Positions 2,260-28,293 of a stretch of DNA of 53,030 nt are shown in pieces. Within the stretch, counting starts at the first letter, position 1. Every line of letters begins with the position of its first letter. Position numbers and translations under genes: made by a program. This DNA comes from Thermoleophilaceae bacterium (GTDB lineage: Bacteria > Actinomycetota > Thermoleophilia > Solirubrobacterales > Thermoleophilaceae): NCBI GenBank assembly GCA_036378175.1, contig DASUWY010000004.1, positions 1-53,030 on the forward strand, written 5' to 3'. The notes below the pieces were generated by a model. The model did not search any database. It saw only the letters and a list, made by a program, of their open reading frames with translations, and had not been told where the DNA came from.

Positions 2260-2745
2260 GTGGCTGAGCGCTACCAGCGTCCGGGCTGGTTCACCACACA
2301 CGTCTTCAACCCCATCGTCGCCGGGCTCACGCGCGTGGGCTTGAGCGTGTACGGATCGCGCGTGCTCGAGGTGAAGGGCCGCAAGTCGGGCGAGTGGCGA
2401 CAGGTTCCGGTCAACCTGCTGCGCCACGAGGGCGTGGATTACCTGGTGGCCCCGCGAGGCCAAACGCAGTGGGTGAAGAACCTGCGGGCGAGTGGTGAGG
2501 CGAGGCTGCGGGTGGGGCGCCGTACGCAGACGTTCAGCGCCCTGGAGCTCACAGACGACGAGAAGCCACCGCTGCTGCGCGCGTACCTGAAGAAGTGGAA
2601 GTTCGAGGTGGGCGTGTTCTTCGAGGGTGTGGGGCCCGATTCACCGGAGGAGGAGCTGCGCCGGATCGCGCCGGGTTATCCGGTGTTCCGCCTCGCCGCC
2701 GGCGCTAGCTCTGCGAGCGCTCGAGCGCCTTCGCCACGTTCGTGA
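2260..2745 (+). CDS. Deazaflavin (F420)-dependent nitroreductase-family oxidoreductase
   Basis: The 161-residue product has the length and layout of the Ddn/Rv3547-like split beta-barrel family, F420H2-dependent reductases typical of actinobacteria. Recognisable features are an amphipathic N-terminus (WFTTHVFNPIVAGL), the family motif VKGRKSGEWRQVPVNLL, and QTQWVKNLRASGEARLRVG. It probably uses F420 (or flavin) to reduce a quinone, enone or nitro compound. It follows the MetE-like gene by 21 bases with a GTG start and is likely co-transcribed. Its last 41 bases overlap the convergent gntR gene. The last dozen residues (SSASARAPSPRS) are low-complexity and lie in that overlap. The substrate is unknown. 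Confidence 0.82.
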   Translation: MAERYQRPGWFTTHVFNPIVAGLTRVGLSVYGSRVLEVKGRKSGEWRQVPVNLLRHEGVDYLVAPRGQTQWVKNLRASGEARLRVGRRTQTFSALELTDDEKPPLLRAYLKKWKFEVGVFFEGVGPDSPEEELRRIAPGYPVFRLAAGASSASARAPSPRS

Positions 2746-3391
2746 GGTGGCGCTTCATCGCGCGTTCGGCCTTGTCCGCTTCCCCGGAGGCCACCGCGTC
2801 CACGATCGCGCCGTGCTCCTCGAGCGACTGGGACGGCCGGCCCGGGATCAGGATCGTCCTGAACTGGAAGCGCACCATCTGCGAGTTGAGAGAGCGGATC
2901 AGCCGCTGCGCGGTGGCGTGGCCGGACAGCTCCACGATCTTCGCGTGAAGCTCCGCGTTCACGTCCGAGGCGCCGATCAGGTCCTCTCCGGCGAGCGCGG
3001 CGCGCTGGCGCGCCAGCACCTCCCGCACCTCGGCCGCCGTGGCGGGCGTGATCCGCAGCGCCGCCTGCCGCGCCGCCAGCCCCTCGAGGGCCGCCCGCGC
3101 CTGCAGGATCTCCACGGCCTCCTGCTCGGTGACGAGGCGCACGCGCGCGCCGCGATGGGGCTGCCGCTCCACGAGTCCCTCGTGCTCCAGCCGCACGAGT
3201 GCCGTGCGCACGGCGGCACGGGGCATCCGGAAGGCGCTGCTCATGTCGGCCTCCACGAGCCGCTGGTTGGGGGCGAGCTCGCCCCGGATGATCGCTTCGC
3301 GCAGGCGCAGGTAGCCGTCGTCCTCGCGGGCGCGGCGGCGGCGTGCGCCGCCGTCGTCGGGGCCGATTTGGGTGGTCATCTTCCGAGCCAT
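2705..3391 (-). CDS. GntR family transcriptional regulator, FCD (FadR-type) ligand domain
   Basis: The 228-residue protein has an N-terminal winged helix-turn-helix (about residues 24-88, including GELAPNQRLVEADMSSAF) and a C-terminal FCD domain (about 95-222). Asp143, His149, His193 and His215 fit the metal-binding ligand site of FCD regulators, which usually sense small carboxylates. The start used is the ATG at 3391; an internal ATG at residue 5 is a near alternative. It is transcribed away from the transporter/catabolic operon. The palindrome at 3419-3428 lies 28 bases upstream of its start and recurs at 954, so it probably represses itself, the operon and the MetE-like gene until a pathway acid is present. 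Confidence 0.9.
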   Translation of the reverse strand: MARKMTTQIGPDDGGARRRRAREDDGYLRLREAIIRGELAPNQRLVEADMSSAFRMPRAAVRTALVRLEHEGLVERQPHRGARVRLVTEQEAVEILQARAALEGLAARQAALRITPATAAEVREVLARQRAALAGEDLIGASDVNAELHAKIVELSGHATAQRLIRSLNSQMVRFQFRTILIPGRPSQSLEEHGAIVDAVASGEADKAERAMKRHLTNVAKALERSQS

Positions 3392-3418
3392 TCTGCCTGA
3401 CCTTAACCGTCACAAATA

Positions 3419-3440
3419 TTGTTGACAAGATAGACGACGA
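3419..3440 (+). promoter_or_regulatory. Candidate GntR operator in the gntR / transporter divergent promoter
   Basis: TTGT-TG-ACAA lies at 3419-3428 and continues GAT...GACGA, matching the site at 954-975. A second imperfect palindrome, ACAA-ATA-TTGT, overlaps it at 3412-3422. TTGACA at 3422-3427 followed after 18 bases by TTAAAT (3446-3451) makes a plausible sigma-70 promoter for the rightward operon, with the -35 box inside the operator. Repression by occlusion is the obvious reading. Regulator identity is inferred from proximity. Confidence 0.65.
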
Positions 3441-3526
3441 TACGGTTAAATCCTCGCGGGTTGAGCGGGGACGGCTGGGCATCTCCGTCCCGGTTCGAGT
3501 CTTCGATTCGAGGGATTGGAGGGGCA

Positions 3527-4867
3527 GTGAGTTCGAAGCGTCGAATGACCGGCTTCGGGGCTGCCGCAGTAGTGGGTCTGGCCCTGGTGGCAGCAGGGTG
3601 CGGCGGCAGCGGCTCGAGCACCAGCACGAGCGCCGGCACCACCCCCGCGTCCACCGCCGGAGGCAGCTCCACGCAGGCGGCTGGCGGAGCGGGAACCGGA
3701 GGAGCCGGGCAGAAGTCCGTAACGGACTATCAGGCCTACATCGGGGGCAAGCCGGGCAAGGCTGACCCCTCCAAGTCGCCCATCTACATCGGCTGGGTGA
3801 ACCAGCAGGGCGGCCAGCAGGTGATCGGCGCGGCCGCCACCGACGGCGCGGACCTCGCCGTGAAGTACGTGAACGACCAGCTCGGCGGCATCGCGGGCCA
3901 TCCGGTGAAGCTCAAGACGTGCTTCATCAAGTCGGCCGAGGAGGAGGGCACCTCGTGCGCCCAGAAGCTCGGCAACGACAAGACGGTCCCCGTCATCGAC
4001 ATGGGCGCCGTTGCGATCGGCATCCAGCCCTTCTACTCGACCATCGCCGGCAAGAAGCCGATCATCACCGGCGTGGGCGTGACGCCGGTGAACTCGGTGC
4101 AGAAGAACTCGGTGATCCTGTTCGGCGACGTGACGAAGGTGCTGGGTCCGTTCGGCACGTACGCGAAGGACATCCTGCACGCGAAGACCGCGGCACTCGT
4201 CTACCCGAACATCGCGGGTATCACGGACGGCGCGGCCGCGATCGCCAAGGGCCTCACCGCGGCGGGCGTGAAGGTGAAGAAGGTGGGCTACTCGCAGGGG
4301 CAGACCGACCTGATCGGGCCGCTCACGGCGGCCGGCGCGCAGAGCGCCGACATGGTGATCCCGTACAGCGACGCGTCGGGGTGCGTGAACCAGGCGAAGG
4401 GCCTCAAGCAGCTCGGAATCACCGACGCGAAGAAGATCGTGTCGGCCCCGCTGTGCCTCAACCCGACGGTCTCGGCCGGTCTGGGCGGCGACTATCCGAT
4501 CTGGACCTACGCGATCGCCAGCTCGCTCTACGGCGACCCCACGGACCCGGGGATGCCGCCGTACATGAAGGTCACGCAGCAGTACAAGGTGAAGGACGCG
4601 CCCGATCCGTGGGTGATCGTGACCTTCTCGCAGGTGCTCACCACGATCAAGTTCCTGAACGAGCTCGGGCCGAGCAACCTCAGCTCGAGCGCGATCCTGA
4701 ACAAGGCGAAGAGCTTCACGGGCCCGGTGGCCCTCGGAGCTCCCGAGCTGCAGTGCGGGAAGTACCCGGACGCTCCGGCGGTCTGCAACGACCGCACCCA
4801 GTTCTTCACCTACCACGGGAAGAACGACTTCAAGAAGGCGGCGTCCTGGTTGCAGCCGCCGCAGTGA
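3527..4867 (+). CDS. Branched-chain amino acid-type ABC transporter substrate-binding lipoprotein
   Basis: The start is set at GTG 3527 because GGAGGGG (3518-3524) precedes it and it opens a proper lipoprotein signal (SSKRRMTGFGAAAVVGLALVAAGC). A longer frame from TTG 3461 would place 22 polar residues ahead of the signal. The lipobox Ala-Ala-Gly-Cys puts the lipidated Cys at residue 25, followed by a Gly/Ser/Thr-rich linker to about residue 60. The rest is a type I periplasmic-binding fold of the LivK/Peripla_BP_6 group, beginning PIYIGWVNQQGG. It captures the ligand outside the membrane for the permease and ATPases encoded just downstream. Related proteins in catabolic clusters often bind aromatic acids rather than amino acids; that is an inference here. 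Confidence 0.9.
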   Translation: MSSKRRMTGFGAAAVVGLALVAAGCGGSGSSTSTSAGTTPASTAGGSSTQAAGGAGTGGAGQKSVTDYQAYIGGKPGKADPSKSPIYIGWVNQQGGQQVIGAAATDGADLAVKYVNDQLGGIAGHPVKLKTCFIKSAEEEGTSCAQKLGNDKTVPVIDMGAVAIGIQPFYSTIAGKKPIITGVGVTPVNSVQKNSVILFGDVTKVLGPFGTYAKDILHAKTAALVYPNIAGITDGAAAIAKGLTAAGVKVKKVGYSQGQTDLIGPLTAAGAQSADMVIPYSDASGCVNQAKGLKQLGITDAKKIVSAPLCLNPTVSAGLGGDYPIWTYAIASSLYGDPTDPGMPPYMKVTQQYKVKDAPDPWVIVTFSQVLTTIKFLNELGPSNLSSSAILNKAKSFTGPVALGAPELQCGKYPDAPAVCNDRTQFFTYHGKNDFKKAASWLQPPQ

Positions 4868-4877
4868 GATGACCCGA

Positions 4878-4909
4878 CCGGGCGGGGCCTCGCTCGAGGT
4901 CCCGCCCGG
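4878..4909 (+). promoter_or_regulatory. Strong intercistronic hairpin between binding protein and permease genes
   Basis: A 15-base stem (4878-4892 with 4895-4909) has one G-T position, which would be a G-U pair in RNA, and a two-base loop. No T-run follows, so it is unlikely to be a full terminator. Such hairpins between the binding-protein gene and the membrane genes commonly stabilise the upstream message or partly terminate transcription, so that binding protein is made in excess. That role is inferred from position. Confidence 0.6.
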
Positions 4910-4928
4910 CTGACCCCGCGGGAGATCG

Positions 4929-6926
4929 ATGCAACAGGTACTCCTATTCGTACTGCTGGGCCTCGGCTCGGGCGCGCTGATAGCGGGCATTGCGCTCGCG
5001 GTCGTGCTCACCTACCGAGGCTCGGGGATCATCAACCTCGCCACCGGCGCGATAGCGATGCTGTCGGGCTACGCGTACTGGTCTCTGAAGACGGGCGAGT
5101 ACGGCGGCGTGCACTTCGCCACCGCGCCGGCGCTCCTGCTCACGCTGCTCATCACGCTCGCGATCGGGGTGCTGATCGAGTTCGTGGCGTTCAGGCCGCT
5201 GCGCACGGCGTCCCCGCTCGCCAAGCTCGTGTCCTCGCTTGGGGTGCTGCTCGTGGCGCAGGCGTCGATGCTTCTCGCCTTCGGCACCGACCAGAAGCCG
5301 CAGCCGTCAATTCTCCCGCAGGGCACGGTGAAGGTGTTCGGCAACACCGTGCCTGAGGACCGCTTCATCCTGGCGGGCATCGTTGTGGGCATCGCGATCG
5401 TGCTGGCGGTGCTCTACCGCTGGACGCGCTTCGGTCTCGCCACGCGTGCGGCGTCGGAGAACGAGCTGAACGCGCAGATCGCCGGTCTGTCAGCCAACCA
5501 GCTGTCGCTCGGCAACACGCTCTTGGCGAGCGTTGTGGCCGGCGGCGTGGGCGTGCTCGCGGCCTCGGTCACGCAGCTCGACACGGTGTCGCTGCCGCTC
5601 CAGGTGGTGCCGGCGCTGGCGGCGGCGCTGCTCGCGCGGCTCACGTCGTTCGGAATCGCCTGCGCGGCCGGACTCGGCATCGGGATCCTCAACTCGCTGA
5701 TCGACTACTTCTCGACCAAGTCCTGGTTCCCCACGGACCAGGGCGTGCCCCTGCCGGGGACGAAGGAGCTGATCGCGTTCCTGATCATCGTGCTGGCGAT
5801 GTTCCTGCGCGGCGCGGCGCTGCCGGGGCGTGGCGAGCTGGTGGAGCAGCGGCTGCCGGAGGTGCCGCGGCCGAACAGGCTGGCGGCGCCGGCGATCGGG
5901 TTCGCGCTCGTGTGCGCGGTGGCCCTGGTGGTGCTGCCCTTCGACTTCAGGCAGGCGCTCGTGAACACTCTCATCGGCACGGTGATGGCGCTGTCGCTCG
6001 TGGTGATCACCGGCTTCGTCGGCCAGATTTCGGTGGTGCAGCTGAGCCTGGCGGGCGCGTCGGGGTTCGTGGTGTCGCACATGGCCGTTGACGCCGGTAT
6101 CGGCTTCCCGCTGGCGCCGATCTGCGGCTCGATCATGGCGGTCACGCTCGGCCTGCTCACCGCGGTGTCGGCGCTGCGCGTGCGCGGGGTGAGCCTCGCG
6201 GTGGTCACGCTGGGCGCGGCCGTGGCGATAGTGAACTTCGGATTCATCAACTCCACCTGGGGCGGCGGCGACACCGGCTCGCCCGTGCCAGAGCCGCACC
6301 TCTTCGGGCTCGATCTCGGCCCGCGTTCCGCCTTCCGTGGGCTCGACGGCAGCCTGCCGAGCCCTGTGTTCGGCTGGGTGGCGCTGGGCGTGACGGTGGT
6401 GATGTGCCTGTTCGTGGCGGCGATCCGGCGCGGCAATCTCGGCGAGCGCATGCTCGCGGTGCGCTCCAATGAGCGCGCCGCCGCGGCGGCGGCCGTGAAC
6501 GTCCGCAACGTCAAGCTGCTCGCGTTCGGGATCAGCTCGTTCATCGCGGGCGTTGCCGGTTCGCTCTACGCGTACAACTTCGGCTCGGTGAGCGCGGACC
6601 GCTTCGACGCCGTCACCGCGCTTGCGCTCATCGCCTTCGCGTACGCCGGCGGCATCACGCTCGTGTCCGGCGCCGTGTTCGCCGGTCTCATCTCCACGGA
6701 GGGGCTCGTGCCGCACGCGCTCGACAAGTGGTTCGGCATCAACGGCAACTGGTTCCTGCTCTTCGGCGGCGTGATCCTCCTGTTCACGCTGATCCAGCAT
6801 CCGGAGGGCGTGGCGGGCGCGTTCTACAAGCGGCTGCACCGCTCGCGAAGGCCGGGCGGGCGCGGCGAGCGCGGGTCGCTCTTCACCGCCAAGACTCCGG
6901 CACCCACCGCGGCGGCCGAGCGATGA
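4929..6926 (+). CDS. Fused LivH-LivM branched-chain-type ABC transporter permease
   Basis: The 665-residue integral membrane protein joins the two permeases that are separate in E. coli. Residues 1 to about 295 are LivH-like (ATG at 4929 behind GGGAG; YRGSGIINLATGAIAML is the typical N-terminal region). After a charged linker (LPEVPRPNRLAAPAIG, about 308-325) the LivM-like half continues to about residue 640. It contains GFVGQISVVQLSLAGASGFV and the cytoplasmic loop GERMLAVRSNERAAAAAAVN that contacts the ATPase. A basic tail ends the protein. It forms the translocation path with the lipoprotein and the two ATPases. Its stop overlaps the livG start by four bases. Confidence 0.93.
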   Translation: MQQVLLFVLLGLGSGALIAGIALAVVLTYRGSGIINLATGAIAMLSGYAYWSLKTGEYGGVHFATAPALLLTLLITLAIGVLIEFVAFRPLRTASPLAKLVSSLGVLLVAQASMLLAFGTDQKPQPSILPQGTVKVFGNTVPEDRFILAGIVVGIAIVLAVLYRWTRFGLATRAASENELNAQIAGLSANQLSLGNTLLASVVAGGVGVLAASVTQLDTVSLPLQVVPALAAALLARLTSFGIACAAGLGIGILNSLIDYFSTKSWFPTDQGVPLPGTKELIAFLIIVLAMFLRGAALPGRGELVEQRLPEVPRPNRLAAPAIGFALVCAVALVVLPFDFRQALVNTLIGTVMALSLVVITGFVGQISVVQLSLAGASGFVVSHMAVDAGIGFPLAPICGSIMAVTLGLLTAVSALRVRGVSLAVVTLGAAVAIVNFGFINSTWGGGDTGSPVPEPHLFGLDLGPRSAFRGLDGSLPSPVFGWVALGVTVVMCLFVAAIRRGNLGERMLAVRSNERAAAAAAVNVRNVKLLAFGISSFIAGVAGSLYAYNFGSVSADRFDAVTALALIAFAYAGGITLVSGAVFAGLISTEGLVPHALDKWFGINGNWFLLFGGVILLFTLIQHPEGVAGAFYKRLHRSRRPGGRGERGSLFTAKTPAPTAAAER

Positions 6927-7684
6927 GCGCGGTTCTCGACGCCAGGCAGGTATCGGTGCAGTTCGGCGGCGTTCGCGCGCTCGCGGGCATCGACCTCGAC
7001 GTTGGTGAGGGCGAGCTCGTCGGGCTCATAGGCCCAAACGGCGCGGGCAAGACGACCTTCGTCGACGCCATCACCGGCTTCGTGAGCTGCGCGGGGAGCA
7101 TCTCGCTCGACGGCTTTGACCTGGCGGGACTCTCGCCCCACGAGCGGGCGGTCCGCGGGCTGGCGCGCACCTGGCAGAGCACCGAGCTCTTCGACGACCT
7201 GACCGTGCGGGAGAACCTGGCGGTGGCGTCGCGGCGACCGTCACTGTGGCAGGTGGCGAAGGAGATGTTCGGCGACTCCGCCGCCACGAGCTCGGAGGTC
7301 GAGCAGGCGCTCGAGCTGCTCGACCTCGCCTGGGCGGAGGACCTGATGCCCGGCGACCTGTCGCAGGGGCAGCGCAAGCTCGTGGGGGTGGCACGCGCGA
7401 TCGTCACCGAGCCGCGCCTGCTCTGCCTCGACGAGCCGGCGGCGGGGCTCGACACCGGTGAGAGCGAGGAGCTCGGGCGGCGGCTTCGGGGCCTTGCCGA
7501 CAAGGGGCAGTCGATGCTGCTGATCGACCACGACATGGGGCTTGTGCTGAGCGTGTGCGACCGCATATTCGTGCTCGAGTTCGGCAAGCTGATCGCTGCC
7601 GGGGCCCCGCAGGACGTGCGCAACGATCAGCGCGTGGTGAGCGCGTACCTCGGCGGGGCCGCGGCCGAGGTGTCGGGGGCCTGA
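6923..7684 (+). CDS. livG: Branched-chain-type ABC transporter ATP-binding protein LivG
   Basis: The 253-residue ATPase starts at ATG 6923, inside the ATGA overlap with the permease stop; the open frame upstream belongs to the permease region. Walker A is GPNGAGKTT (37-45), the signature is LSQGQ (146-150, a mild variant of LSGGQ), and Walker B is LLCLDEP (166-172), followed by the H-loop region IDHDMGL. The long insertion between Q-loop and signature is typical of LivG. It pairs with LivF on the cytoplasmic face of the fused permease. Confidence 0.92.
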   Translation: MSAVLDARQVSVQFGGVRALAGIDLDVGEGELVGLIGPNGAGKTTFVDAITGFVSCAGSISLDGFDLAGLSPHERAVRGLARTWQSTELFDDLTVRENLAVASRRPSLWQVAKEMFGDSAATSSEVEQALELLDLAWAEDLMPGDLSQGQRKLVGVARAIVTEPRLLCLDEPAAGLDTGESEELGRRLRGLADKGQSMLLIDHDMGLVLSVCDRIFVLEFGKLIAAGAPQDVRNDQRVVSAYLGGAAAEVSGA

Positions 7685-8418
7685 TGGCCACAGCGGTCCT
7701 CGATATCGAGAGCCTCACCGCCGGCTACGAGGACGCCGCCGTGGTGAGGGACCTGAACGTCACGGTGGGCGAGGGCGAGGTGGTCGCGCTTCTCGGCGCG
7801 AATGGCGCCGGCAAGACCACCACGCTGCGCGCGATCTCCGGCATCGTCCACCCGATGGCGGGCCGCGTCATGCTCGCCGGCCAGGACCTCGCGGGGAGCT
7901 CGATCAGCGCACGGGCGCGGATGGGCATCGCGCACGTGCCCGAGAACCGCGGTCTGTTCTTCGGGCTGACCGTGGCCGAGCACTTCCGCCTCGGCCACCG
8001 GACCGAGCGCCTGGACGAGGACGCCGCCTACCGCCACTTCCCGGCGCTCGCCGATTTGCGCGACCGCCGCTGCGGACTGCTCTCCGGCGGGGAGCAGCAG
8101 ATGCTGGCGGTGGGACGAGCCCTGGCGCGGCATCCGAGGCTGCTCCTGCTCGACGAGCTGAGCCTCGGGCTCGCCCCGCTGATCGTGGAGCGCCTGCTGC
8201 CGGTGGTGCGCGAGTACGCGACCGAGAGCGGCTGCGGCGTCCTGCTCGTCGAGCAGCACATCCAGCTCGCGCTCAGCGTTGCGGACCGCGGCTACGTGCT
8301 CTCGCACGGGGAGCTCGTGCTGCACGATCGGGCGGACGCGCTCCGGGGTAACAGGGACCTCCTGATGGCGAGCTACTTTGGCGAGCGCGCCACGGCTGCT
8401 CTCGAAACCGACGCATAG
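7684..8418 (+). CDS. livF: Branched-chain-type ABC transporter ATP-binding protein LivF
   Basis: The 244-residue ATPase starts at ATG 7684, sharing one base with the livG stop (TGATG). Walker A is GANGAGKTT (38-46), the signature LSGGE is at 133-137 and Walker B LLLLDE is at 153-158. VEQHIQLALSVADRGYVL is the typical LivF C-terminal region. It completes a full Liv-type importer (lipoprotein, fused permease, LivG, LivF). The catabolic genes begin only 11 bases downstream, so transport and breakdown are probably on one transcript. Confidence 0.92.
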   Translation: MATAVLDIESLTAGYEDAAVVRDLNVTVGEGEVVALLGANGAGKTTTLRAISGIVHPMAGRVMLAGQDLAGSSISARARMGIAHVPENRGLFFGLTVAEHFRLGHRTERLDEDAAYRHFPALADLRDRRCGLLSGGEQQMLAVGRALARHPRLLLLDELSLGLAPLIVERLLPVVREYATESGCGVLLVEQHIQLALSVADRGYVLSHGELVLHDRADALRGNRDLLMASYFGERATAALETDA

Positions 8419-8429
8419 GATGCGACCGA

Positions 8430-9368
8430 ATGTCTGACAGTCACCCCGTTCCCTCGGAGCGTGCGCGCGAGCTCGTTCGCGGCGGCTACGACCCCCACAT
8501 CCACATCGCGCCCGACGTGGTGGACCGCCGGATCAGCGACGTGCAGCTGGCGCGGCGCTTCCTCGAGCTTGGGCTCGACGGCTTCGGCCTCAAGTCGCAC
8601 TACACCTCCACCGCGGAGCGCGCGCGGGTGGTGTCCGAGGCGGTGCCCGGCATCCATGTGATCGGGGCCATCACGCTCAACCGCGCCGTGGGCGGATTGA
8701 ATCCCACCGCGCTGGAGATCGCCGCTCGCGAGGGTGCGCGAATCGTCTGGTTCCCCACGGTGAGCTCGGAGAACGAACAGCACGAGGTGCTCGCCGCCGA
8801 TCCGAACGGCAAGGTGCCGGTGTGGGTGAAGTTCGAGCTGTCGCTCCGCGAGGCGGGCGTGGTGCCGGAACCCGTGCCGGTGGTGGACGCGGCGGGAGAG
8901 CTTGTGCCCGAGGCGCGTGCCGTGCTCGACGTGATCGCTCGACACGAGATGGTGCTGGCCACCGGTCACCTCGCGCGCGACGAGATCTTCACGCTCGTTG
9001 ACGGCGCGGTGGAGGCCGGAGTGCGGGACATCGTGGTCACCCATCCCGAGTTCCCCTCGCAGCGCATCTCGCCGGAGGACCAGGTGGCCCTGGCCGACAA
9101 GGGGGCGCTGATGGAGCGTGCGTTCACCACGCCCCACACCGGCAAGTGCTCGTGGCAGCAGATCTTCGACGCCACCCGTGCCGTGGGCGCGGAGCGGACC
9201 GTCTGGGCCACGGATCTCGGCCAGGTTTTCAACCCGCCGGTGGAGGACGGGCTCGCGCTGATGGCGGACCAGTTCCTTGGCGCCGGCTTCAGCGAGGAGG
9301 AGGTCCGGATCATGGCTGTGGAGAACACCCGGAGGCTTGCGGGCGTACCCACCGAGGTGCGCGGTTGA
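8430..9368 (+). CDS. DUF6282 family amidohydrolase-like protein
   Basis: The 312-residue protein begins with DPHIHIAPD (residues 21-29), which marks the DUF6282 family. Residues fit an amidohydrolase-type TIM barrel: His23 and His25 (HxH), Lys55 and His57 after strand 2, His180 (ATGH), His205 (VTHPEFP) and Asp262 (WATDLG). The biochemical role of the family is not established to my knowledge. Placed directly before a GalB-like hydratase and a GalC-like aldolase, it is a candidate for an earlier hydrolytic step, such as opening a pyrone lactone as LigI does. That is inference from fold and position. The ATG at 8430 lies 11 bases after livF. Confidence 0.8.
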   Translation: MSDSHPVPSERARELVRGGYDPHIHIAPDVVDRRISDVQLARRFLELGLDGFGLKSHYTSTAERARVVSEAVPGIHVIGAITLNRAVGGLNPTALEIAAREGARIVWFPTVSSENEQHEVLAADPNGKVPVWVKFELSLREAGVVPEPVPVVDAAGELVPEARAVLDVIARHEMVLATGHLARDEIFTLVDGAVEAGVRDIVVTHPEFPSQRISPEDQVALADKGALMERAFTTPHTGKCSWQQIFDATRAVGAERTVWATDLGQVFNPPVEDGLALMADQFLGAGFSEEEVRIMAVENTRRLAGVPTEVRG

Positions 9369-10078
9369 GCAAGCGAGTGCAGGTGATCGGCGCCCATTCC
9401 GCCGACTTCGTCTGGCGCGCGGGTGGCGCGGTGGCGATGGCGGTGGAGAACGGGGGAGAGGCCGAGGTGATCGCGCTCTCGTACGGCGAGCGAGGCGAGT
9501 CCGGCGAGCTCTGGAAGGAGGAGGGCCAGACGATCGAGAACGTGAAGGAGATCCGCCACGGGGAGGCCGAGCGCGCGGCCGCCTCGCTGGGCGCGAGCTT
9601 CCGCTGCCTCGATCTCGGCGATTACCCGCTGCAGATCGACTACGAGGCGCTCATGCGCATCGCTGACGCGATCCGCGAGTTCGCCCCCGACGTGCTCATC
9701 ACACACACGGACCGCGACCCGTTCAACCCCGACCATCCCGTGGCGTATGCCGCCGTCGATCGCGCGCGCAGCCTCGCGGCGGGCGCCGGCGTGTCGAGCG
9801 CGTTCCCCACGATCAAGCCGCCCGCGCTGTTCCTGTTCGAACCGCACCAGCCAGAGCTCTGCAACTTCACGCCGACCGTGTTCGTGGACATCACGCCCGT
9901 GATCGAGCGAAAGCGCGCGGCGATGGCCGAGATGAAGGCGCAGCAGTACCTGCAGACCTACTACGCCCAGCGGGCCGAGCAGCGTGGCAACCACGCGCGG
10001 CGCGCTTCCGGCAACCAGGAGGTGCGCTTCGCCGAGGCGTTCCAGCGCGTGATCCCGCAGGTGGTCACGGAGCTGTGA
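9365..10078 (+). CDS. galB: PIG-L family protein, GalB-like (4-oxalomesaconate hydratase type)
   Basis: The 237-residue product belongs to the PIG-L/LmbE metal-dependent fold, but has the GalB variant GAHSADFVWRAGG instead of AHPDDE. Likely zinc ligands are His11, Asp14 and His124 (FNPDHP). SYGERGESGELW and the region FEPHQPELCNFTPTVFVDITP also recall GalB, which hydrates 4-oxalomesaconate in gallate/protocatechuate meta-cleavage. The start is placed at TTG 9365, overlapping the previous stop (TTGA); GTG 9377 is an alternative. The next gene encodes the matching aldolase, which strengthens the assignment beyond deacetylase. Confidence 0.8.
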   Translation: MSKRVQVIGAHSADFVWRAGGAVAMAVENGGEAEVIALSYGERGESGELWKEEGQTIENVKEIRHGEAERAAASLGASFRCLDLGDYPLQIDYEALMRIADAIREFAPDVLITHTDRDPFNPDHPVAYAAVDRARSLAAGAGVSSAFPTIKPPALFLFEPHQPELCNFTPTVFVDITPVIERKRAAMAEMKAQQYLQTYYAQRAEQRGNHARRASGNQEVRFAEAFQRVIPQVVTEL

Positions 10079-10701
10079 GCGCCGCCCAGACGCTCTCCGA
10101 GCTGGCGCGCCTGGGCAGCGCGACCGTGTACGAGGCCGGCGGGCGCGGCGGCTTCGTGGACTTTCCCCTGACTCAGGTGGTCCCGGGGTCCCGCGCCGCG
10201 GGGCCCGCGCGCACCGCGATGTGCGGGCAGGACGACAACCTCATGGTGCACGCGGCGATGTCGCGCCTTCAGCCGGGCGAGGTGCTCGTGCTGACGATGC
10301 CCGACCCGGCGCCCGTGGCGCTCGTGGGCGAGCTGCTCGCCACGCAGGCTCAGGCGCGCGGCGCGGCGGCAATCCTGGTGGACGGCGCCGTTCGCGACGT
10401 GGAGGAGCTGGCCGAGATGGGCCTGCCGATCTGGGCACGCTGGGTGCGCGTGCATGGCGCGGACAAGAAGACGGTGGGGACGCTTGACGAGCCGGTGACG
10501 GTTGGTGGCGCGCTCATCCGCACGGGCGACGTGATGGTGCTCGATGCCGACGGCGCCGCCGTGGTGGAGGCCGAGCGGGTGGACGAGGTGCTCGAGGCGT
10601 CGCTCGCGCGCGAGGAGAAGGAGCGCGTGAAGCGGGCGAAGCTCGAGGCGGGGGAGCTGTCCTACGACCTCGACGGCCTTCGTGCCATCGTTGAGGGATG
10701 A
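10075..10701 (+). CDS. galC: RraA-like 4-carboxy-4-hydroxy-2-oxoadipate aldolase / oxaloacetate decarboxylase
   Basis: The 208-residue protein is of the RraA/HMG-CHA aldolase fold. It carries VGELLATQAQARGAAA and the metal/substrate segment ILVDGAVRDVEEL, where the conserved DG..RD motif is complete. In the gallate and protocatechuate 4,5-cleavage pathways this enzyme (GalC/LigK) splits the GalB product into pyruvate and oxaloacetate. GTG 10075 overlaps the galB stop by four bases, and its own stop overlaps the dioxygenase start. True RraA RNase E inhibitors are shorter (about 160 residues) and are not expected next to GalB. Confidence 0.83.
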   Translation: MSAAQTLSELARLGSATVYEAGGRGGFVDFPLTQVVPGSRAAGPARTAMCGQDDNLMVHAAMSRLQPGEVLVLTMPDPAPVALVGELLATQAQARGAAAILVDGAVRDVEELAEMGLPIWARWVRVHGADKKTVGTLDEPVTVGGALIRTGDVMVLDADGAAVVEAERVDEVLEASLAREEKERVKRAKLEAGELSYDLDGLRAIVEG

Positions 10702-11654
10702 CGGACCTCGCGCATCTGGGCCCAGTCGAGATCCTCACCCCCAAGGGTGAGGAGAGCCTGCACTTCTTCGTCGACGTCATGGGGATGGAGATCGAGGCGC
10801 AGGAGGGGCAGTCGTATTACCTGCGCGGGTGGGGCGATTACCAGCGCTGGTCGACCAAGCTCACCGAGTCGTCCACGTCGGGCATGGCGTGCCTGGGGCT
10901 CCGGGCGTGGGATCCGGATGCCCTGGAGCGGCTCGTCTCCCGCGTCGAGGCGAGTGGACTCGGCGAGGGCTGGACCGAGGGCGACCTCGGCCGCGGTCCC
11001 TCGTACCGCTTCCGCGACCCGGACGGCCACGTGTTCGAGCTCTACTACGAGGTGGAGCGCTACGACCCGCCGGAGCACCTTCGGCCCGCGCATAAGAACG
11101 TGCCCGGCCGCTACACGGGCCGCGGCTGCGCGGTGAAGCGCCTCGACCACATCAACATCCTCGCGGCCGACGTGCGTGCCAACCGCGAGTTCTGCGTGGA
11201 CACCCTCGGCTACCGCTTGTACGAGCGCATCGAGCTCGACGACGGCACCGAGACGGGCGCCTGGATGAGCGCTTCCATCGCCGCTCACGAGCTCATCTAC
11301 ACGGCGGACGCGTACGGCGCCCACGGCCGCCTTCACCACGTGGCGTTCTGGGTGGACACCCGCGAGGAGTGCCTGCGCGCGGCGGACATCTGGCTGGAGA
11401 ACGACGTCTACATCGAGGCCGCTCCCTCCAAGCACACGATCGCCCAGGGCATGTTCCTGTACGGCTACGAGCCGGGCGGGAACAGGGTGGAGGTGACGAG
11501 CGGTGGCCGCCTCGTGTACGCGCCCGACGAGCCGGTGGTGGTGTGGACGGAGGCCGAGCGCGCCAAGGGCCAGGCGTGGGGCGTGAAGACGATCGACGCA
11601 TTCCACACCTACGGCACACCGCCGGTGGAAGAGGCGGTGGGGCAGCGCTCGTGA
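10698..11654 (+). CDS. Type I extradiol (catechol 2,3-dioxygenase-like) ring-cleavage dioxygenase, VOC fold
   Basis: The 318-residue protein has two vicinal-oxygen-chelate modules. Iron(II) ligands are visible in the second: His151 (LDHINIL), His214 (LHHVAFW) and Glu265 (NRVEV), at almost the positions seen in XylE. The first module (residues 1-130) is structural and retains YRFRDPDGHVFELYYEVE. It should cleave a catechol-type ring next to the hydroxyl pair. Its place after GalB and GalC suggests it opens the ring whose product they finish. Canonical gallate and protocatechuate 4,5-dioxygenases belong to the unrelated LigB fold, so this pairing is unusual. The ATGA start overlaps galC. Confidence 0.88.
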   Translation: MTDLAHLGPVEILTPKGEESLHFFVDVMGMEIEAQEGQSYYLRGWGDYQRWSTKLTESSTSGMACLGLRAWDPDALERLVSRVEASGLGEGWTEGDLGRGPSYRFRDPDGHVFELYYEVERYDPPEHLRPAHKNVPGRYTGRGCAVKRLDHINILAADVRANREFCVDTLGYRLYERIELDDGTETGAWMSASIAAHELIYTADAYGAHGRLHHVAFWVDTREECLRAADIWLENDVYIEAAPSKHTIAQGMFLYGYEPGGNRVEVTSGGRLVYAPDEPVVVWTEAERAKGQAWGVKTIDAFHTYGTPPVEEAVGQRS

Positions 11655-11998
11655 AGCCGGTGGTGGTGCGGCCGGGCGAGGGGCACCGGCTCGGCAACGT
11701 GGAATTCCTCGCCCGCACGGCGGACACCCCGCGCTTCAACTTCGGGATCATCGAGATCGTGGCGGGGCGCGAGCTGGAGGCGCACGTGCACCGCGAGGAG
11801 GACGACGCCTTCTACATCATCGAGGGCGAGCTCACGTTCTTCTTCGGCGACGAGGAGGTGGTCGCTCCGCCCGGCACGTTCGTCTTGGTGCCGCCCGGTG
11901 TGGAGCACGGATTCCGCAACCACGGCGACGTGCCCGTCCGGATGTTCAACATCCACGCGCCGGCAGGATTCGACCGGCGCATCGGGCTGCCCGACTAG
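11651..11998 (+). CDS. Small single-domain cupin protein
   Basis: The 115-residue cupin starts at GTG 11651 in the GTGA overlap with the dioxygenase. Motif 1 (AHVHREEDDAFYIIEGE, His45 and His47) and motif 2 (PPGVEHGFRNHG, His86) are intact, so a metal is probably bound. Members act as isomerases, dioxygenases or ligand sensors, and sequence alone does not choose between them. As the last gene of the operon it could tautomerise or isomerise a ring-cleavage product, since no separate tautomerase is visible. It faces the convergent GNAT gene, with stops overlapping at 11995-11998. Confidence 0.8.
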   Translation: MKPVVVRPGEGHRLGNVEFLARTADTPRFNFGIIEIVAGRELEAHVHREEDDAFYIIEGELTFFFGDEEVVAPPGTFVLVPPGVEHGFRNHGDVPVRMFNIHAPAGFDRRIGLPD

Positions 11999-15274: not shown

Positions 15275-15323
15275 GGCTAAATGTTGCCCCCAGGTTGTGT
15301 CAACGGGGTCCCTTTCCTAATTT
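15275..15323. promoter_or_regulatory. Overlapping divergent promoters of lrp and the ammonia-lyase gene
   Basis: On the plus strand TTGTGT (15295-15300), a 17-base spacer and TAATTT (15318-15323) point to the lyase gene. On the minus strand TTGACA (15303-15298), a 17-base spacer and TTAGCC (15280-15275) point to the lrp gene. The two -35 boxes overlap, so one bound regulator could control both directions. The boxes are seen in the sequence; use by the housekeeping sigma factor is inferred. Confidence 0.55.
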
Positions 15324-15363
15324 CAGGCGCGAGGGGAAGTCGAAACGAGGGAGAGGTAGCGCG

Positions 15364-16986
15364 ATGACGAGTGTCCTGCCGCGGACGGAGCTGCAGCTGG
15401 AGATCGACGGTGGATCGCTGACGATCGAAGACCTTGTGGCCGTGGCCCGCGGAGGACTCGAGACCGGACTGGCGACCCACGCGGTCCCTCGCATCGAGGC
15501 AGCTCGCGAGCTGAAGTGCGAACTGATCGAGCACGAGGTGCCGATCTACGGCGTGACCACCGGCTTCGGCGACAGCGCTCACCGTCAGATCGCCCCCGCG
15601 AAGACGGCCGCTCTCCAGCACAACCTGCTGCGGGACCTCGGCTGCGGCACCGGCCCCACCGCCAAGCCGGACGTGACCCGCGGCACGATGCTGCTGCGCG
15701 CCAACTGCCTCGCCAAGGGCAACTCCGGCGTGCGCGTGGAGCTGATCGAGCGCCTGCTCGCACTGCTCAACGCGGACGTTCTTCCCCTCATCCCCGAGCG
15801 CGGCTCCTGTGGCGCGAGCGGCGACCTCGTACCGCTCTCCTACATCGGCTCGGCTCTCGTGGGAGAGGTGGAGGTGCTCCACCGCGGCCAGCCGCGCCCG
15901 GCGGCCGACGTGCTCGCAGAGCTCGGCTTCGATCCCTTCGAGCTCGAGGCCAAGGAGGGGCTGGGCCTGGTGAATGGAACGTCGTTCATCACCGCCTTCT
16001 CCGCACTCGCGGTTGCCGACGCCCGCGACCTCGCCGACGTGGCGGATCTGTGCACCGCCATGGCATCCGAGTCGCTGCTCGGCAACCGCGGCCACTTCAA
16101 CGCCTTCCTGTTCGAGGCGAAGGCGCACCCCGGCATGATCGAGAGCGCGCGCGTGATCCGCGGCCTGCTCGAGCAGTCGCAGCTCGCGCTCGACAGCGAG
16201 GAGATCTTCGCCGGCCAGGACCTCGACGGCCGCGAATACCTCGAGCTCCATCGCCAGGTGCAGGACAAGTACTCGATCCGCTGCGCGCCGCATATCAACG
16301 GCATGCTGCGCGACACGCTGGAGTGGGCGTCGCGCTGGGTGGAGATCGAGATGAACTCCTCAGACGACAACCCGCTGTTCGACACACACAGCGGGCGCGT
16401 GCAGAGCGGCGGCAACTTCTACGGCGGCCACATGGGGCAGGCGATGGACTCGCTGAAGGTCGCGCTCGCGAACCTGTGCGATCTGATGGATCGCCAGCTC
16501 GAGCTCGTGGTGGACGAGAAGTTCAACGCGGGGCTCACGCCGAACCTGATCCCGTTCTTCGGCCCCGAGCACCCGGAAGCCGGCCTGCACCATGGCTTCA
16601 AGGGCATGCAGCTCTGCTGCTCGGCGATGACGGCCGAGGCACTCAAGCTCTCGAATCCCGCCACCGTTCACTCGCGTTCCACCGAGGCCCACAACCAGGA
16701 CAAGGTGTCCATGGCCACCATCGCGGCGCGCGACGCGCGCTCGATCGTGGAGCTGGCCCAGAACATCGCCGCAATCCACCTCCTCGCCGTGACTCAGGCC
16801 CTCGACCTTCGCGGGCCTGAGAAGGCGAGTCCGGTCACCCGCGCCGCGCACGACCTCGTGCGCGCGCGGGTGCCATTTATGGACGGCGACCGCCGCATGG
16901 ACGAGGACATCCGCGCCGTGACCGACCTGATCCGCTCGGGCGAGCTCTCGCGTCTCGCCCGGGCGGGCGCGGCGCCGCTGAGCTAG
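15364..16986 (+). CDS. Aromatic amino acid ammonia-lyase (HAL/PAL/TAL family), substrate unclear
   Basis: The 540-residue protein has the MIO-forming triad Ala151-Ser152-Gly153 in GSCGASGDLVPLSY, catalytic Tyr62 in IYGVTTGFG, and the distal STEAHNQDKVSM region. The start ATG follows GGGAGAGG (15349-15356). The substrate-selectivity pair, Ser-His in histidine lyases, His-Leu in bacterial tyrosine lyases and Phe-Leu in plant phenylalanine lyases, is Asp91-Leu92 here (LLRDLGCG). Histidine specificity is therefore doubtful, and no hutU, hutI or hutG neighbours exist. The product would be an arylacrylate such as cinnamate or coumarate. That would suit the feruloyl-CoA synthase-like ligase encoded 13 kb away. 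Aminomutase activity is another possibility. Confidence 0.85.
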   Translation: MTSVLPRTELQLEIDGGSLTIEDLVAVARGGLETGLATHAVPRIEAARELKCELIEHEVPIYGVTTGFGDSAHRQIAPAKTAALQHNLLRDLGCGTGPTAKPDVTRGTMLLRANCLAKGNSGVRVELIERLLALLNADVLPLIPERGSCGASGDLVPLSYIGSALVGEVEVLHRGQPRPAADVLAELGFDPFELEAKEGLGLVNGTSFITAFSALAVADARDLADVADLCTAMASESLLGNRGHFNAFLFEAKAHPGMIESARVIRGLLEQSQLALDSEEIFAGQDLDGREYLELHRQVQDKYSIRCAPHINGMLRDTLEWASRWVEIEMNSSDDNPLFDTHSGRVQSGGNFYGGHMGQAMDSLKVALANLCDLMDRQLELVVDEKFNAGLTPNLIPFFGPEHPEAGLHHGFKGMQLCCSAMTAEALKLSNPATVHSRSTEAHNQDKVSMATIAARDARSIVELAQNIAAIHLLAVTQALDLRGPEKASPVTRAAHDLVRARVPFMDGDRRMDEDIRAVTDLIRSGELSRLARAGAAPLS

Positions 16987-18745: not shown

Positions 18746-18895
18746 TCAGCCTTCCTCGAAATCGTCCCGGACGGCCTCGAAATGCGTGCGGCACGCGTCG
18801 CAGTGCCACTGTGCGGTGATGATTTGGCCACCGAAGAGAGACACGAGCACGACGCTGTTGTTGCGGCCGCAGTTCGGACAGGCCGGCTTGCTCAC
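18746..18895 (-). CDS. Stand-alone zinc-ribbon mini-protein (detached PaaD C-terminal domain)
   Basis: This 49-residue protein starts at GTG 18895 in a GTGA overlap with the paaC stop, so it is the last gene of the paa operon. Two CxxC pairs are visible: Cys6/Cys9 (CPNCG) and Cys32/Cys35 (CDACR), spaced like a zinc beta-ribbon, with a CRTHFEAVRD ending. In usual PaaD proteins a ribbon of this kind is fused behind the DUF59 domain. Here the DUF59 protein (19772-20089) ends without one, which suggests that PaaD has been split into two genes. A role in iron or zinc insertion into the oxygenase is inferred from that. Confidence 0.75.
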   Translation of the reverse strand: MSKPACPNCGRNNSVVLVSLFGGQIITAQWHCDACRTHFEAVRDDFEEG

Positions 18896-19593
18896 ACGCG
18901 CTCCTCGGGGTTCCAGCCGTCCCAGTCGCGCGGCTCGGGCAGCGCGAGGCGGGGGAGACCTGTGTCCTCGAGCGCCTCGCCGATGACGCTGCGAAGCGAT
19001 CCCCGGAGCGCATCCGGGCCGTCGGACAGGTAGCCGCCGCTCACGAGCGCGGCGAACTCCTGGCCGTCGGGCGGGCCGGCCCAGCGGGCAGCCTGCCACC
19101 AGGCCTCGCCAAGGGCGGCGGCGAACGGGTCGCGCTGAACCTCATCACGCGCGAGCCTGCGGGCCCACGCGCGCGCGTGAACACCATGCGAGCGCTCCTC
19201 CTGAAGGATCTTCCGAGCCCGCTGCGCCAGCCCCACGAAAGCGGATTGCTCGCACGCCCGCACGAACGCGGTGAGCATCCCGTCCACAGCGAAATTGACG
19301 GCCACAAACCACGGCCAGCTCGGAAGCTCGGCGGCAAGCACGGGCATGCACCCTGCGACCTGCGACCCGCGACCTGCGACCTCGAGCTGCTTCAGCAGCG
19401 GATACGTCGCCCGTGCATGCCCGAGCTCGTCCTGGGCCATGGCGGCGGCCGCCACTGCGGATTCGAGGGTGGGCGCGCTCACCGCCCACTCGCCGTAGCG
19501 GCGCCCGAGTGCGGCCTTGTTGTCCGCCAGCGAGAGCACCAGGTGGCCGAGCGCCTCCCGCTCGGGCGACTGGATCTCCACGGTGGCTGTCAC
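18892..19593 (-). CDS. paaC: PaaC-like subunit of a phenylacetyl-CoA epoxidase-type oxygenase
   Basis: The 233-residue four-helix-bundle protein belongs to the PaaA/PaaC (PF05138) family. It starts at GTG 19593, overlapping the paaB stop. Unlike E. coli PaaC, which has lost its metal ligands, it shows a complete diiron-type set: Glu35 (YGEWA), Glu56-x-x-His59 (DELGHAR), Glu115 (ACEQSA) and Glu133-x-x-His136 (EERSHG). It may therefore be a second iron-binding subunit rather than a passive partner of PaaA. It is encoded with paaA, paaD, paaB and the zinc ribbon. No paaE reductase is seen nearby. Confidence 0.85.
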   Translation of the reverse strand: MTATVEIQSPEREALGHLVLSLADNKAALGRRYGEWAVSAPTLESAVAAAAMAQDELGHARATYPLLKQLEVAGRGSQVAGCMPVLAAELPSWPWFVAVNFAVDGMLTAFVRACEQSAFVGLAQRARKILQEERSHGVHARAWARRLARDEVQRDPFAAALGEAWWQAARWAGPPDGQEFAALVSGGYLSDGPDALRGSLRSVIGEALEDTGLPRLALPEPRDWDGWNPEERV

Positions 19594-19775
19594 GCTGAGA
19601 TCGCCTCCCGTACCTCGTCGCGCGGCACGATGATCATCTCGATCCAGGGCTGCTCGTCGTAGATCGAGCGGGCGGACACGAGGGCCAGGTCCTCGTCGTC
19701 CTCGCGCACGGCGCCCACGTGGTGGAGCGGCTCCTCGTAGGACTGCCGCGCGAACACCTCCCAGGCTCTGCTCAT
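19590..19775 (-). CDS. paaB: PaaB-like small subunit of the aryl-CoA oxygenase
   Basis: I start it at the ATG at 19775, which overlaps the paaD stop (ATGA) and gives 61 residues: SRAWEVFARQSYEEPLHHVG, then a region ending in PWIEMIIVPRDEVREAIS. WEVF.R and the LHHVG segment are PaaB family features (PF06243). The usual length is about 90-95 residues, so this is a shortened version. PaaB is thought to bridge or stabilise the PaaAC complex. The order A-D-B-C-ribbon differs from the usual A-B-C-D-E. Confidence 0.82.
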   Translation of the reverse strand: MSRAWEVFARQSYEEPLHHVGAVREDDEDLALVSARSIYDEQPWIEMIIVPRDEVREAISA

Positions 19776-20089
19776 ACCGCGATCCCGAGCTCTCGCATGG
19801 TTGCGCGCGCCTCGTCGCGGATGCGGTCCTTCGTCCACACCGGATCCCACACGACCTCGATCTCCACGGAGTCGATGTCCGGATCGGCTACCAACGCCTC
19901 ACGGATGTCGTCCTGGATGAAGTCCATCGCCGGGCAGCCCATGGCGGTGTAGGTGATCTCGAGGTCGGCACGGCGCTCCGCCGCGTCATACGCCACTGAG
20001 ACGATCAAGCCCATCCCGAGCACCGACACCGGGATCTCCGGGTCCTCCACATGGCGGAGCGCCTCCCAAATGCGCGCTTCAACACTCAT
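19772..20089 (-). CDS. paaD: PaaD-like DUF59/MIP18 metal-cluster assembly protein, lacking the zinc ribbon
   Basis: The 105-residue protein is a single DUF59 domain: HVEDPEIPVSVLGMGLIVSV, then TYTAMGCPAMDFIQDDI with the conserved Cys, and VEIEVVWDPVWTKDRI. It resembles SufT/PaaD factors that help assemble metal centres. Typical PaaD proteins run to about 160 residues with a C-terminal four-Cys ribbon; this one ends at LGIAV. The missing ribbon is plausibly the separate gene at 18746-18895. The paaA stop overlaps its start by 11 bases. Confidence 0.85.
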   Translation of the reverse strand: MSVEARIWEALRHVEDPEIPVSVLGMGLIVSVAYDAAERRADLEITYTAMGCPAMDFIQDDIREALVADPDIDSVEIEVVWDPVWTKDRIRDEARATMRELGIAV

Positions 20090-27447: not shown

Positions 27448-28293
27448 ATGAACGACCAGCTCAGAAGGCGCTCGCTGGGCGCGCCGGCCGCCCGCTCGAT
27501 CCTGCTCACGGTCCTTGGCGAGTACGTGCTGCCGCGTGGGGAGCCCGTGTGGCAGGAGACGCTGGTGGCCGCCCTCGGGGCGCTCGACTATGGCGAGCAC
27601 GCCGCGCGGCAGGCGCTCGCGCGCAGCGTGCGCGAGGGCTGGCTCGTGAGCGAGCGCCACGGCCGCCGGGCACGGGTGCACCTCAGCGCATCCACGGCCG
27701 AGCTGCTGCGTAGCGGCGCCGAGCGCATCTACGGGTTCGGCGAGCCGTGGGACTGGGACGGCGAGTGGCTCATGCTCGTGCTGCGCGTGCCGGAGGCGCG
27801 GCGCGAGGTGCGCCACCAGCTGCGCACCCAGCTCGCGTGGGCCGGGCTCGGCTCACTCGGGGGCGGCGTGTGGCTCACTCCCCATGTGGAACGCGAGGCC
27901 GAGCTCGAGGCGCTCGTGCGCGCGGAGCCGGAAGCGGAGGTGGTGTCGTTCCACGGCCGGATCGGCAGTTTTGGGGAGCCGCGCCGGGTGGCTGACGCCG
28001 CGTGGGATCTCGCGGCGGTGATCGAGGAGTACAAGCGCTTCATCGCCCGCTTCAGCCGGCTTCGGCCCGCCTCACCCGCGGCCGTGTTCCGTGCGCAGAC
28101 CGAGCTCGTGCACGAGTGGCGTCGCTTCCCGTTCGTGGACCCTGATCTGCCGGCCGAGCTGCTCGCCCGGGACTGGCCGCGCCGCCGCGCCCATGACCTG
28201 TTCAGGGAGCGCCATGACCGCTGGGCCGCCGCCGCACGCTCATACTTCGAGTCTCTGGAGGAGGAAGTGATCGCACCGGGAGCAGCCGCTTGA
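27448..28293 (+). CDS. paaX: PaaX family transcriptional repressor
   Basis: The 281-residue protein has the PaaX layout: an N-terminal winged helix (about residues 12-85, RSILLTVLGEYVLPRGEPVW and ARQALARSVREGWL), a central domain (GFGEPWDWDGEWLMLVL) and a C-terminal domain (RFPFVDPDLPAELLARDWP). PaaX senses phenylacetyl-CoA in E. coli and releases paa promoters; here the effector may be another aryl-CoA. It sits between the oxygenase/ligase island and the intradiol dioxygenase, which starts in the TGATG of its stop. It is the most likely local regulator of the aryl-CoA genes. Confidence 0.9.
   Translation: MNDQLRRRSLGAPAARSILLTVLGEYVLPRGEPVWQETLVAALGALDYGEHAARQALARSVREGWLVSERHGRRARVHLSASTAELLRSGAERIYGFGEPWDWDGEWLMLVLRVPEARREVRHQLRTQLAWAGLGSLGGGVWLTPHVEREAELEALVRAEPEAEVVSFHGRIGSFGEPRRVADAAWDLAAVIEEYKRFIARFSRLRPASPAAVFRAQTELVHEWRRFPFVDPDLPAELLARDWPRRRAHDLFRERHDRWAAAARSYFESLEEEVIAPGAAA

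Follow-up and report, generated by a model that had tools for sequence, protein, structure and literature searches.

The DNA considered here is a 53,030-nucleotide stretch of a Thermoleophilaceae bacterium from soil (contig DASUWY010000004.1), below called the window, and our subject is a compact gene set on its forward strand that resembles a meta-cleavage pathway for gallate-type aromatic acids. A preliminary description of this DNA had reported five overlapping genes at 8430-11998, encoding a DUF6282 protein, GalB- and GalC-like enzymes, a type I (VOC) extradiol dioxygenase and a cupin, downstream of a Liv-type importer, and both domain searches and a reading of the gene junctions bear this out. 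All five genes are in place, neighbours share 4-bp overlaps (with the junctions TTGA, GTGA, ATGA and GTGA), and the DUF6282 gene begins 11 bp past the end of the gene for the LivF-type ATPase. The whole unit is wider than initially described in that it includes the importer genes at 3461-8418, and 3461-11998 is best read as one operon. A scan for sigma-70 promoters and terminators gave no signal above chance. The earlier suggestion that these genes serve a single pathway is supported by the overlaps, the dedicated importer and the conserved synteny laid out below.

The GalB-type gene (9365..10078, forward strand) has a TTG start, lies in a TTGA overlap with the preceding gene and encodes a predicted 4-oxalomesaconate (OMA)/KCH hydratase of the PIG-L family (Pfam, 73.5 bits). 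Its product scores 203 bits against the solved 4-oxalomesaconate hydratase 5cgz compared to 25 bits for the next PDB chain, and the metal-site residues H11, D14 and H124 are invariant among 20 homologues. We reject a deacetylase reading on the strength of this difference in score and of deacetylase equivalog cut-offs that are far from reached. The following gene (10075..10701, forward strand; Pfam RraA-like, 116 bits) encodes a GalC-type CHA aldolase/oxaloacetate decarboxylase that scores narrowly above the cut-off of the NCBIfam CHA aldolase equivalog NF006731 (180.3 vs 179), falls under the cut-off of TIGR02798 and matches the solved enzyme 3noj with 145 bits. In the CHA aldolase of Pseudomonas putida, Arg-123, Asp-124 and Glu-199 are essential or metal-binding (PMC5065237). 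An alignment to 3noj with an offset of 16 places them at R107, D108 and E183 of the window protein, and R107, D108, R179 and E183 are all invariant among 20 homologues. Judged by solved relatives and catalytic residues, the GalB-like and GalC-like identities proposed earlier thus appear sound.

The predicted ring opener (10698..11654, forward strand) contains two Pfam Glyoxalase domains and scores 307 bits against the catechol 2,3-dioxygenase model TIGR03211, for which the cut-off is 320. It had been described as a XylE-type enzyme with His151, His214 and Glu265, and our alignment confirms these residues of the 2-His-1-carboxylate iron site alongside H197, H246 and Y255, which we take to be the counterparts of His199, His246 and Tyr255 in XylE. 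Its closest solved chain is 9wgj (366 bits, followed at a distance by 3lm4 with 236 and 1mpy with 128 bits), which its depositors named catechol 1,2-dioxygenase; no paper on this structure was found in the open-access literature, which leaves most subscription journals outside the scope of this and all further literature searches.

The gene set is not a peculiarity of the window. DUF6282 matches occur in 18 of 296 actinobacterial genomes, and wherever the protein shares at least 50% identity with that of the window (eight genomes, its own included), genes for GalB and GalC are adjacent (8/8), with the VOC gene present in all cases except G108, which has DUF6282-GalB-GalC-DUF1932 instead. Around more weakly matching DUF6282 genes, GalB, GalC and VOC were found nearby in none of nine loci examined. 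Adding named contigs of metagenome-assembled genomes and a Thermus oshimai plasmid to the 296-genome sample, we found all four genes together in 12 loci (the window, its same-genus relative G001, G046, L030, L033, six Rubrobacteraceae and Thermus), which cover metagenome-assembled genomes of Solirubrobacterales type, Rubrobacteraceae and the Thermus plasmid. The order DUF6282-GalB-GalC-VOC holds in 11 of the 12, all of them actinobacterial, with the VOC gene coming first on the Thermus plasmid. The expectation of conserved synteny across actinobacteria therefore holds for these four families, but not for the cupin that had been counted as a fifth. This small single-domain protein (11651..11998, forward strand; Pfam Cupin_2) is linked to the module only in the window and G001, so that we regard it as a genus-restricted accessory gene and rule it out as a core pathway enzyme. 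Phylogenetically, GalB and GalC of seven sampled four-gene loci, Thermus included, each form one clade with 100/100 support that stands apart from homologues linked to GalD or LigAB and has G108 outside. Such clades are what a co-inherited DUF6282-GalB-GalC unit would be expected to give.

Other genes accompany the module in part of these loci. Genes resembling those of the O-demethylases DesA and LigM flank it in Rubrobacteraceae (617 bits to the DesA model and 464 bits to LigM structures), the Thermus cluster has a gene annotated as 4-hydroxybenzoate 3-monooxygenase, and a DUF1932 dehydrogenase related to 6-phosphogluconate dehydrogenase adjoins the module in 9 of the 12 loci, the window, G001 and L030 being those that lack it. 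In the genome of the window, a DUF1932 gene lies on another contig (G000:C8:27966-28172), and LigC was not searched genome-wide. This dehydrogenase recurs beside both this form of the cluster and the one described next (L033, L034-L039, L051, L054 and L040, as well as L058, L059, L116, L118, L119 and L121) and is possibly a LigC-like enzyme.

Members of the same VOC family with 48-54% identity to the window protein are also found in a sister arrangement together with GalC and the tautomerase GalD (14 sampled loci, with GalB detected in 13). These GalD-type clusters are found on plasmids of Agrobacterium vitis, Agrobacterium tumefaciens, Rhizobium and Thioclava as well as in Nonomuraea and large-genome actinomycetes; in Azospirillum, a GalB-GalC-GalD set has LigI and LigAB instead. 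In A. tumefaciens 186, a walnut isolate, a tannase/feruloyl esterase gene comes after GalD and the genes of a Liv-type importer run divergently, and in the GalD-type genome G368 a gene for a LigM-like demethylase diverges from the set. The GalD-type arrangement assigns the VOC enzyme to catabolism of gallate type, and the tannase and DesA/LigM-type neighbours suggest gallate, acids derived from syringate or similar compounds. This agrees with the polyhydroxylated or methoxylated aromatic acid that had been proposed as substrate from the window alone, though no part of our reading is less certain than the substrate of the window enzyme itself.

GalD and DUF6282 exclude each other in the sampled genomes. 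The GalD family PF04303 is absent from 11 of 11 genomes on the DUF6282 side, single-contig Rubrobacteraceae included (genomes G000, G001, G046, G071, G086, G101, G146, G167, G177, G108 and G352, the last of which carries its related VOC gene on a short contig), and present in seven of seven GalD-type genomes, from which DUF6282 is in turn absent. The preliminary description had also noted a VOC enzyme where a LigB-fold ring opener would be usual and the lack of a classical tautomerase, and both absences extend genome-wide: searches of the 4.29-Mb genome of the window, which is about 95% complete, found neither PF02900 (LigB-fold dioxygenases) nor PF04303 (PrpF/GalD tautomerases), and no LigM-type demethylase at an E-value of 1e-20. 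A LigB-fold gene in G108 was considered as the ring opener of that VOC-less locus and rejected, since by eye it reads like the Memo/AmmeMemoRadiSam-B type rather than LigAB and adjoins tRNA-modification-like genes. DUF6282 occupies the tautomerase slot of the cluster, which agrees with one half of the earlier idea that it and the cupin stand in for the missing tautomerase and dehydrogenase; the half concerning the cupin was not supported.

What kind of enzyme DUF6282 (8430..9368, forward strand; Pfam, 217 bits) might be is best approached through its fold, as sequence searches gave no convincing solved relative (no PDB match at E<=1). An AlphaFold2 model built from only five sequences (mean pLDDT 79, pTM 0.83) is a TIM barrel with conserved residues at the strand ends, and D21, H23, H25, K55, H57, H180, H205, E229, D262 and Q265 are kept in at least 90% of 24 diverse DUF6282 members. 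They include the amidohydrolase pattern of HxH after strand 1, His after strands 5 and 6 and Asp after strand 8 (H23, H25, H180, H205 and D262). Structure comparison gave Z scores of about 20 with dipeptidases, dihydroorotase and phosphotriesterase-type amidohydrolases, and Foldseek matches include the PDC hydrolase LigI (4di8 and 4dia) and LigW (4l6d) among many others. The fold puts DUF6282 into the amidohydrolase superfamily and picks out no particular reaction; with its amidohydrolase-type barrel, it is not a member of the GalD/LigU family PF04303, whose fold is PrpF/DapF-like, but may act like GalD. Several residues (S56, Y58, N115, E116, R183, P209, K239 and W242) are common to module-linked DUF6282 proteins and rare or absent in distant ones. 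We found no DUF6282 in viral contigs and no mention of it by name in the open-access papers searched. On an Alicyclobacillus dauci plasmid (L055 8989-10575), a DUF6282 gene precedes, near the record end, a PIG-L/GalB gene that is matched only as two separate pieces, with no GalC or VOC annotated past the circular join.

The VOC enzymes fall into two types at one catalytic position. In 24 proteins that are cluster-linked or related, the residue equivalent to XylE His199 is a Tyr within the motif K-[S/T/G]-Y-D (Rubrobacteraceae, Thermus, all GalD-type clusters, 9wgj and two Roseomonas/Methylobacterium relatives), whereas the clade of the window (with G001, L030, L033 and G046) has His as in ordinary catechol enzymes. 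The VOC tree splits into the window clade, a Rubrobacteraceae clade and the remainder, with weakly supported deeper branches and 1mpy on a long branch. The Tyr/His difference could mark two substrate classes, and together with the clade split it means that the ring opener has changed more than the DUF6282-GalB-GalC trio behind it. Two Rubrobacteraceae encode a second, His-type VOC paralogue (L110 8239-9177 and L111 7936-8874) in a context that by eye resembles a classical catechol meta pathway and offers a natural internal comparison. On a Roseomonas gilardii plasmid (L056), a Tyr-form cluster-type VOC gene lies beside genes for a LigA/LigB-like dioxygenase, a LigI-like hydrolase, DUF1932 and a distant GalC, i.e., both types of ring opener are found within one cluster.

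From gene order, overlaps, families, residues, synteny and the GalD/DUF6282 exclusion, we infer a substrate, a cleavage position and a DUF6282 reaction that together make the operon a system that would import an acid of gallate type and degrade it by meta-cleavage, using a ring opener that is not orthologous to the usual one and DUF6282 as the isomerase, a reading towards which we lean with slightly more confidence than doubt. The Liv-type importer would take up a trihydroxylated, possibly originally methoxylated, aromatic acid from plants whose ring the VOC enzyme would open in extradiol fashion to OMA or its direct precursor. DUF6282 would then catalyse the metal-dependent isomerisation of OMA to the GalB substrate, the step performed by GalD or LigU elsewhere, after which GalB would hydrate the isomerised OMA to CHA and GalC would split CHA into pyruvate and oxaloacetate (for the names OMA, KCH and CHA and the assignments GalD/LigU, GalB/LigJ and GalC/LigK, see PMC12314914). 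Since ring opening of gallate yields OMA directly without a dehydrogenase (PMC8431788), LigC would not be needed. Within this scheme, the assignment to the class of GalB/GalC OMA-type pathways is well supported, as is, by linkage, that of the VOC enzyme as its ring opener. A broader proposal, which we put forward only tentatively and with more doubt than belief, is that DUF6282 is a hitherto unrecognised class of metal-dependent enzymes with amidohydrolase fold replacing GalD/LigU and that this VOC lineage, in which Tyr mostly replaces the catalytic His, arose independently as a second family of gallate-type dioxygenases in Actinomycetota, Alphaproteobacteria and Deinococcota.

Several observations weigh against the gallate-type scheme. 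DUF1932 has no place in it despite its linkage to most module loci, an amidohydrolase fold is no less natural for a hydrolase or a decarboxylase than for an isomerase, and the window VOC with its His and its separate position in the tree may differ in substrate from the 24 Tyr-type enzymes. Two actinobacterial control genomes (G111 and G134) moreover have LigAB-type clusters with GalB-GalC and neither PF04303 nor DUF6282; the absence of GalD alone thus demands no replacement, and genomic subtraction cannot prove that DUF6282 is an isomerase. Some of these points favour the main rival, a protocatechuate or 3-O-methylgallate version of the pathway in which the VOC-opened ring still needs oxidation or removal of an ester or lactone. 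There, the DUF1932 enzyme would act like LigC (CHMS to PDC) and DUF6282 like LigI as a hydrolase of PDC or CHMOD, delivering OMA to GalB and GalC. DUF6282 indeed shares the superfamily of LigI, whose structures are among its Foldseek matches, and both the frequent DUF1932 linkage and the annotated 4-hydroxybenzoate 3-monooxygenase of Thermus would fit, as would the catechol-type His of the window VOC. However, many unrelated amidohydrolases match the DUF6282 fold equally well, three loci, the window itself among them, have no DUF1932 close to the module, and OMA isomerisation would be left uncatalysed because no GalD-family gene was found on the DUF6282 side, so that we consider this version unlikely, though it deserves to be taken seriously.

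Two further alternatives each concern a single enzyme. If DUF6282 were a decarboxylase or hydrolase acting ahead of ring opening, with isomerisation occurring spontaneously or through GalB, its mononuclear-looking metal site (HxH, H, H, D) would make sense given its resemblance to the aromatic-acid decarboxylases of the superfamily, with LigW among the structural matches, and so would the GalB-GalC sets of G111 and G134. Yet clusters with DUF6282 in the place of GalD are otherwise equivalent to those with GalD, and a GalB/GalC clade of its own goes along with DUF6282. This suggests that DUF6282 is coupled to the late steps, and we regard the idea as improbable. We also give little credence to the view that the VOC enzyme has GalB and GalC as neighbours only incidentally and works as an ordinary catechol 2,3-dioxygenase with a product that takes a different route. 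While its full XylE catalytic set and a TIGR03211 score just below the cut-off are what such an enzyme would show, its gene shares a 4-base overlap with that of GalC, the linkage recurs in the 12 module loci and, in another order, in the 14 GalD-type loci, and none of the semialdehyde hydrolase, dehydrogenase or decarboxylase genes of a catechol route lies within 8430-11998.

Upstream, the operon begins with the gene for the substrate-binding protein of the Liv-type importer (3461..4867, forward strand; Pfam Peripla_BP_6, 83.6 bits), whose real start probably lies downstream of 3461. It is followed on the same strand by a 665-aa permease of LivH-LivM type with two BPD_transp_2 stretches (4929..6926; Pfam, 134.5 bits), a LivG-type ATPase (6923..7684; Pfam ABC_tran and BCA_ABC_TP_C) joined to it by an ATGA junction, and a LivF-type ATPase (7684..8418; Pfam ABC_tran, 100 bits) after a TGATG junction. 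Divergently from the operon, the reverse strand encodes a GntR/FCD regulator (2705..3391; Pfam FCD 105 bits, GntR 48 bits), a family that the clusters of Thermus and Rubrobacter have as well. A repeat search found a perfect 8-bp inverted repeat, a candidate operator, between the regulator gene and the operon (3403..3449; TTAACCGT...ACGGTTAA). Further upstream, tandem proteins (176-859 and 1021-2238) are related to the catalytic domain of cobalamin-independent methionine synthase but score far under the equivalog cut-offs. These MetE-like genes (176-2238) were considered as O-demethylation partners and discarded, given that only proximity speaks for them and that a LigM-type partner was not found in this genome. 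Downstream lie a gene of the aromatic amino acid lyase family (15295-16986; HAL/PAL type, 557 bits), a PaaA/PaaC-type gene of phenylacetate catabolism with a small neighbouring open reading frame that looks PaaD-like by eye (18892-20089), i.e., a second aromatic pathway, and an intradiol dioxygenase gene of the catechol/chlorocatechol 1,2-type (28290-29204) with 38% identity to one beside the Rubrobacteraceae module.

Comparison with known systems names a ring-opener lineage and a step for the DUF6282 family, both of which are testable with purified enzymes in a known coupled assay. Databases at present call the VOC enzymes of these clusters catechol 2,3-dioxygenase or VOC family protein and GalB a PIG-L deacetylase; if our reading is true, the annotation of tannin and lignin-monomer catabolism would therefore need correcting in Rubrobacteraceae, Solirubrobacterales, actinomycetes, Rhizobiaceae and Thermus. 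Gallate dioxygenases have been placed in the LigB-fold superfamily (AromaDeg, PMC4250580), and we found neither a precedent for a VOC gallate dioxygenase nor an experimental report on the GalD-type VOC clusters, which are annotated in databases, in the open-access literature. The gal pathway of P. putida (GalA, GalB, GalC and GalD) shares with the window the GalB hydratase and GalC aldolase steps and the expected end products, but the window has a type I VOC opener instead of the LigB-fold GalA, DUF6282 instead of GalD and a Liv-type ABC importer within the operon. With the protocatechuate 4,5-cleavage/syringate pathway of Sphingobium SYK-6 (LigAB/DesB, LigC, LigI, LigU, LigJ and LigK), it would share OMA and CHA as intermediates and LigK as the counterpart of GalC, and relatives of DesA and LigM adjoin the Rubrobacter module, whereas LigAB/DesB is lacking, no LigM-type demethylase was found in the genome of the window, and the hydratase is of GalB type in place of LigJ. 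Catechol 2,3-dioxygenases of the XylE type (1mpy and 3lm4) are alike in fold, metal ligands and catalytic residues and unlike in gene context. The GalD-type clusters, arranged as GalB-VOC-GalC-GalD(-tannase) on plasmids of Agrobacterium, Rhizobium and Thioclava and as GalB-GalC-GalD-VOC in large-genome actinomycetes and Nonomuraea, likewise combine a VOC enzyme with GalB and GalC and in several Rhizobiaceae also a Liv importer, but differ from the window in having GalD for DUF6282, Tyr at the XylE His199 position and other GalB/GalC clades.

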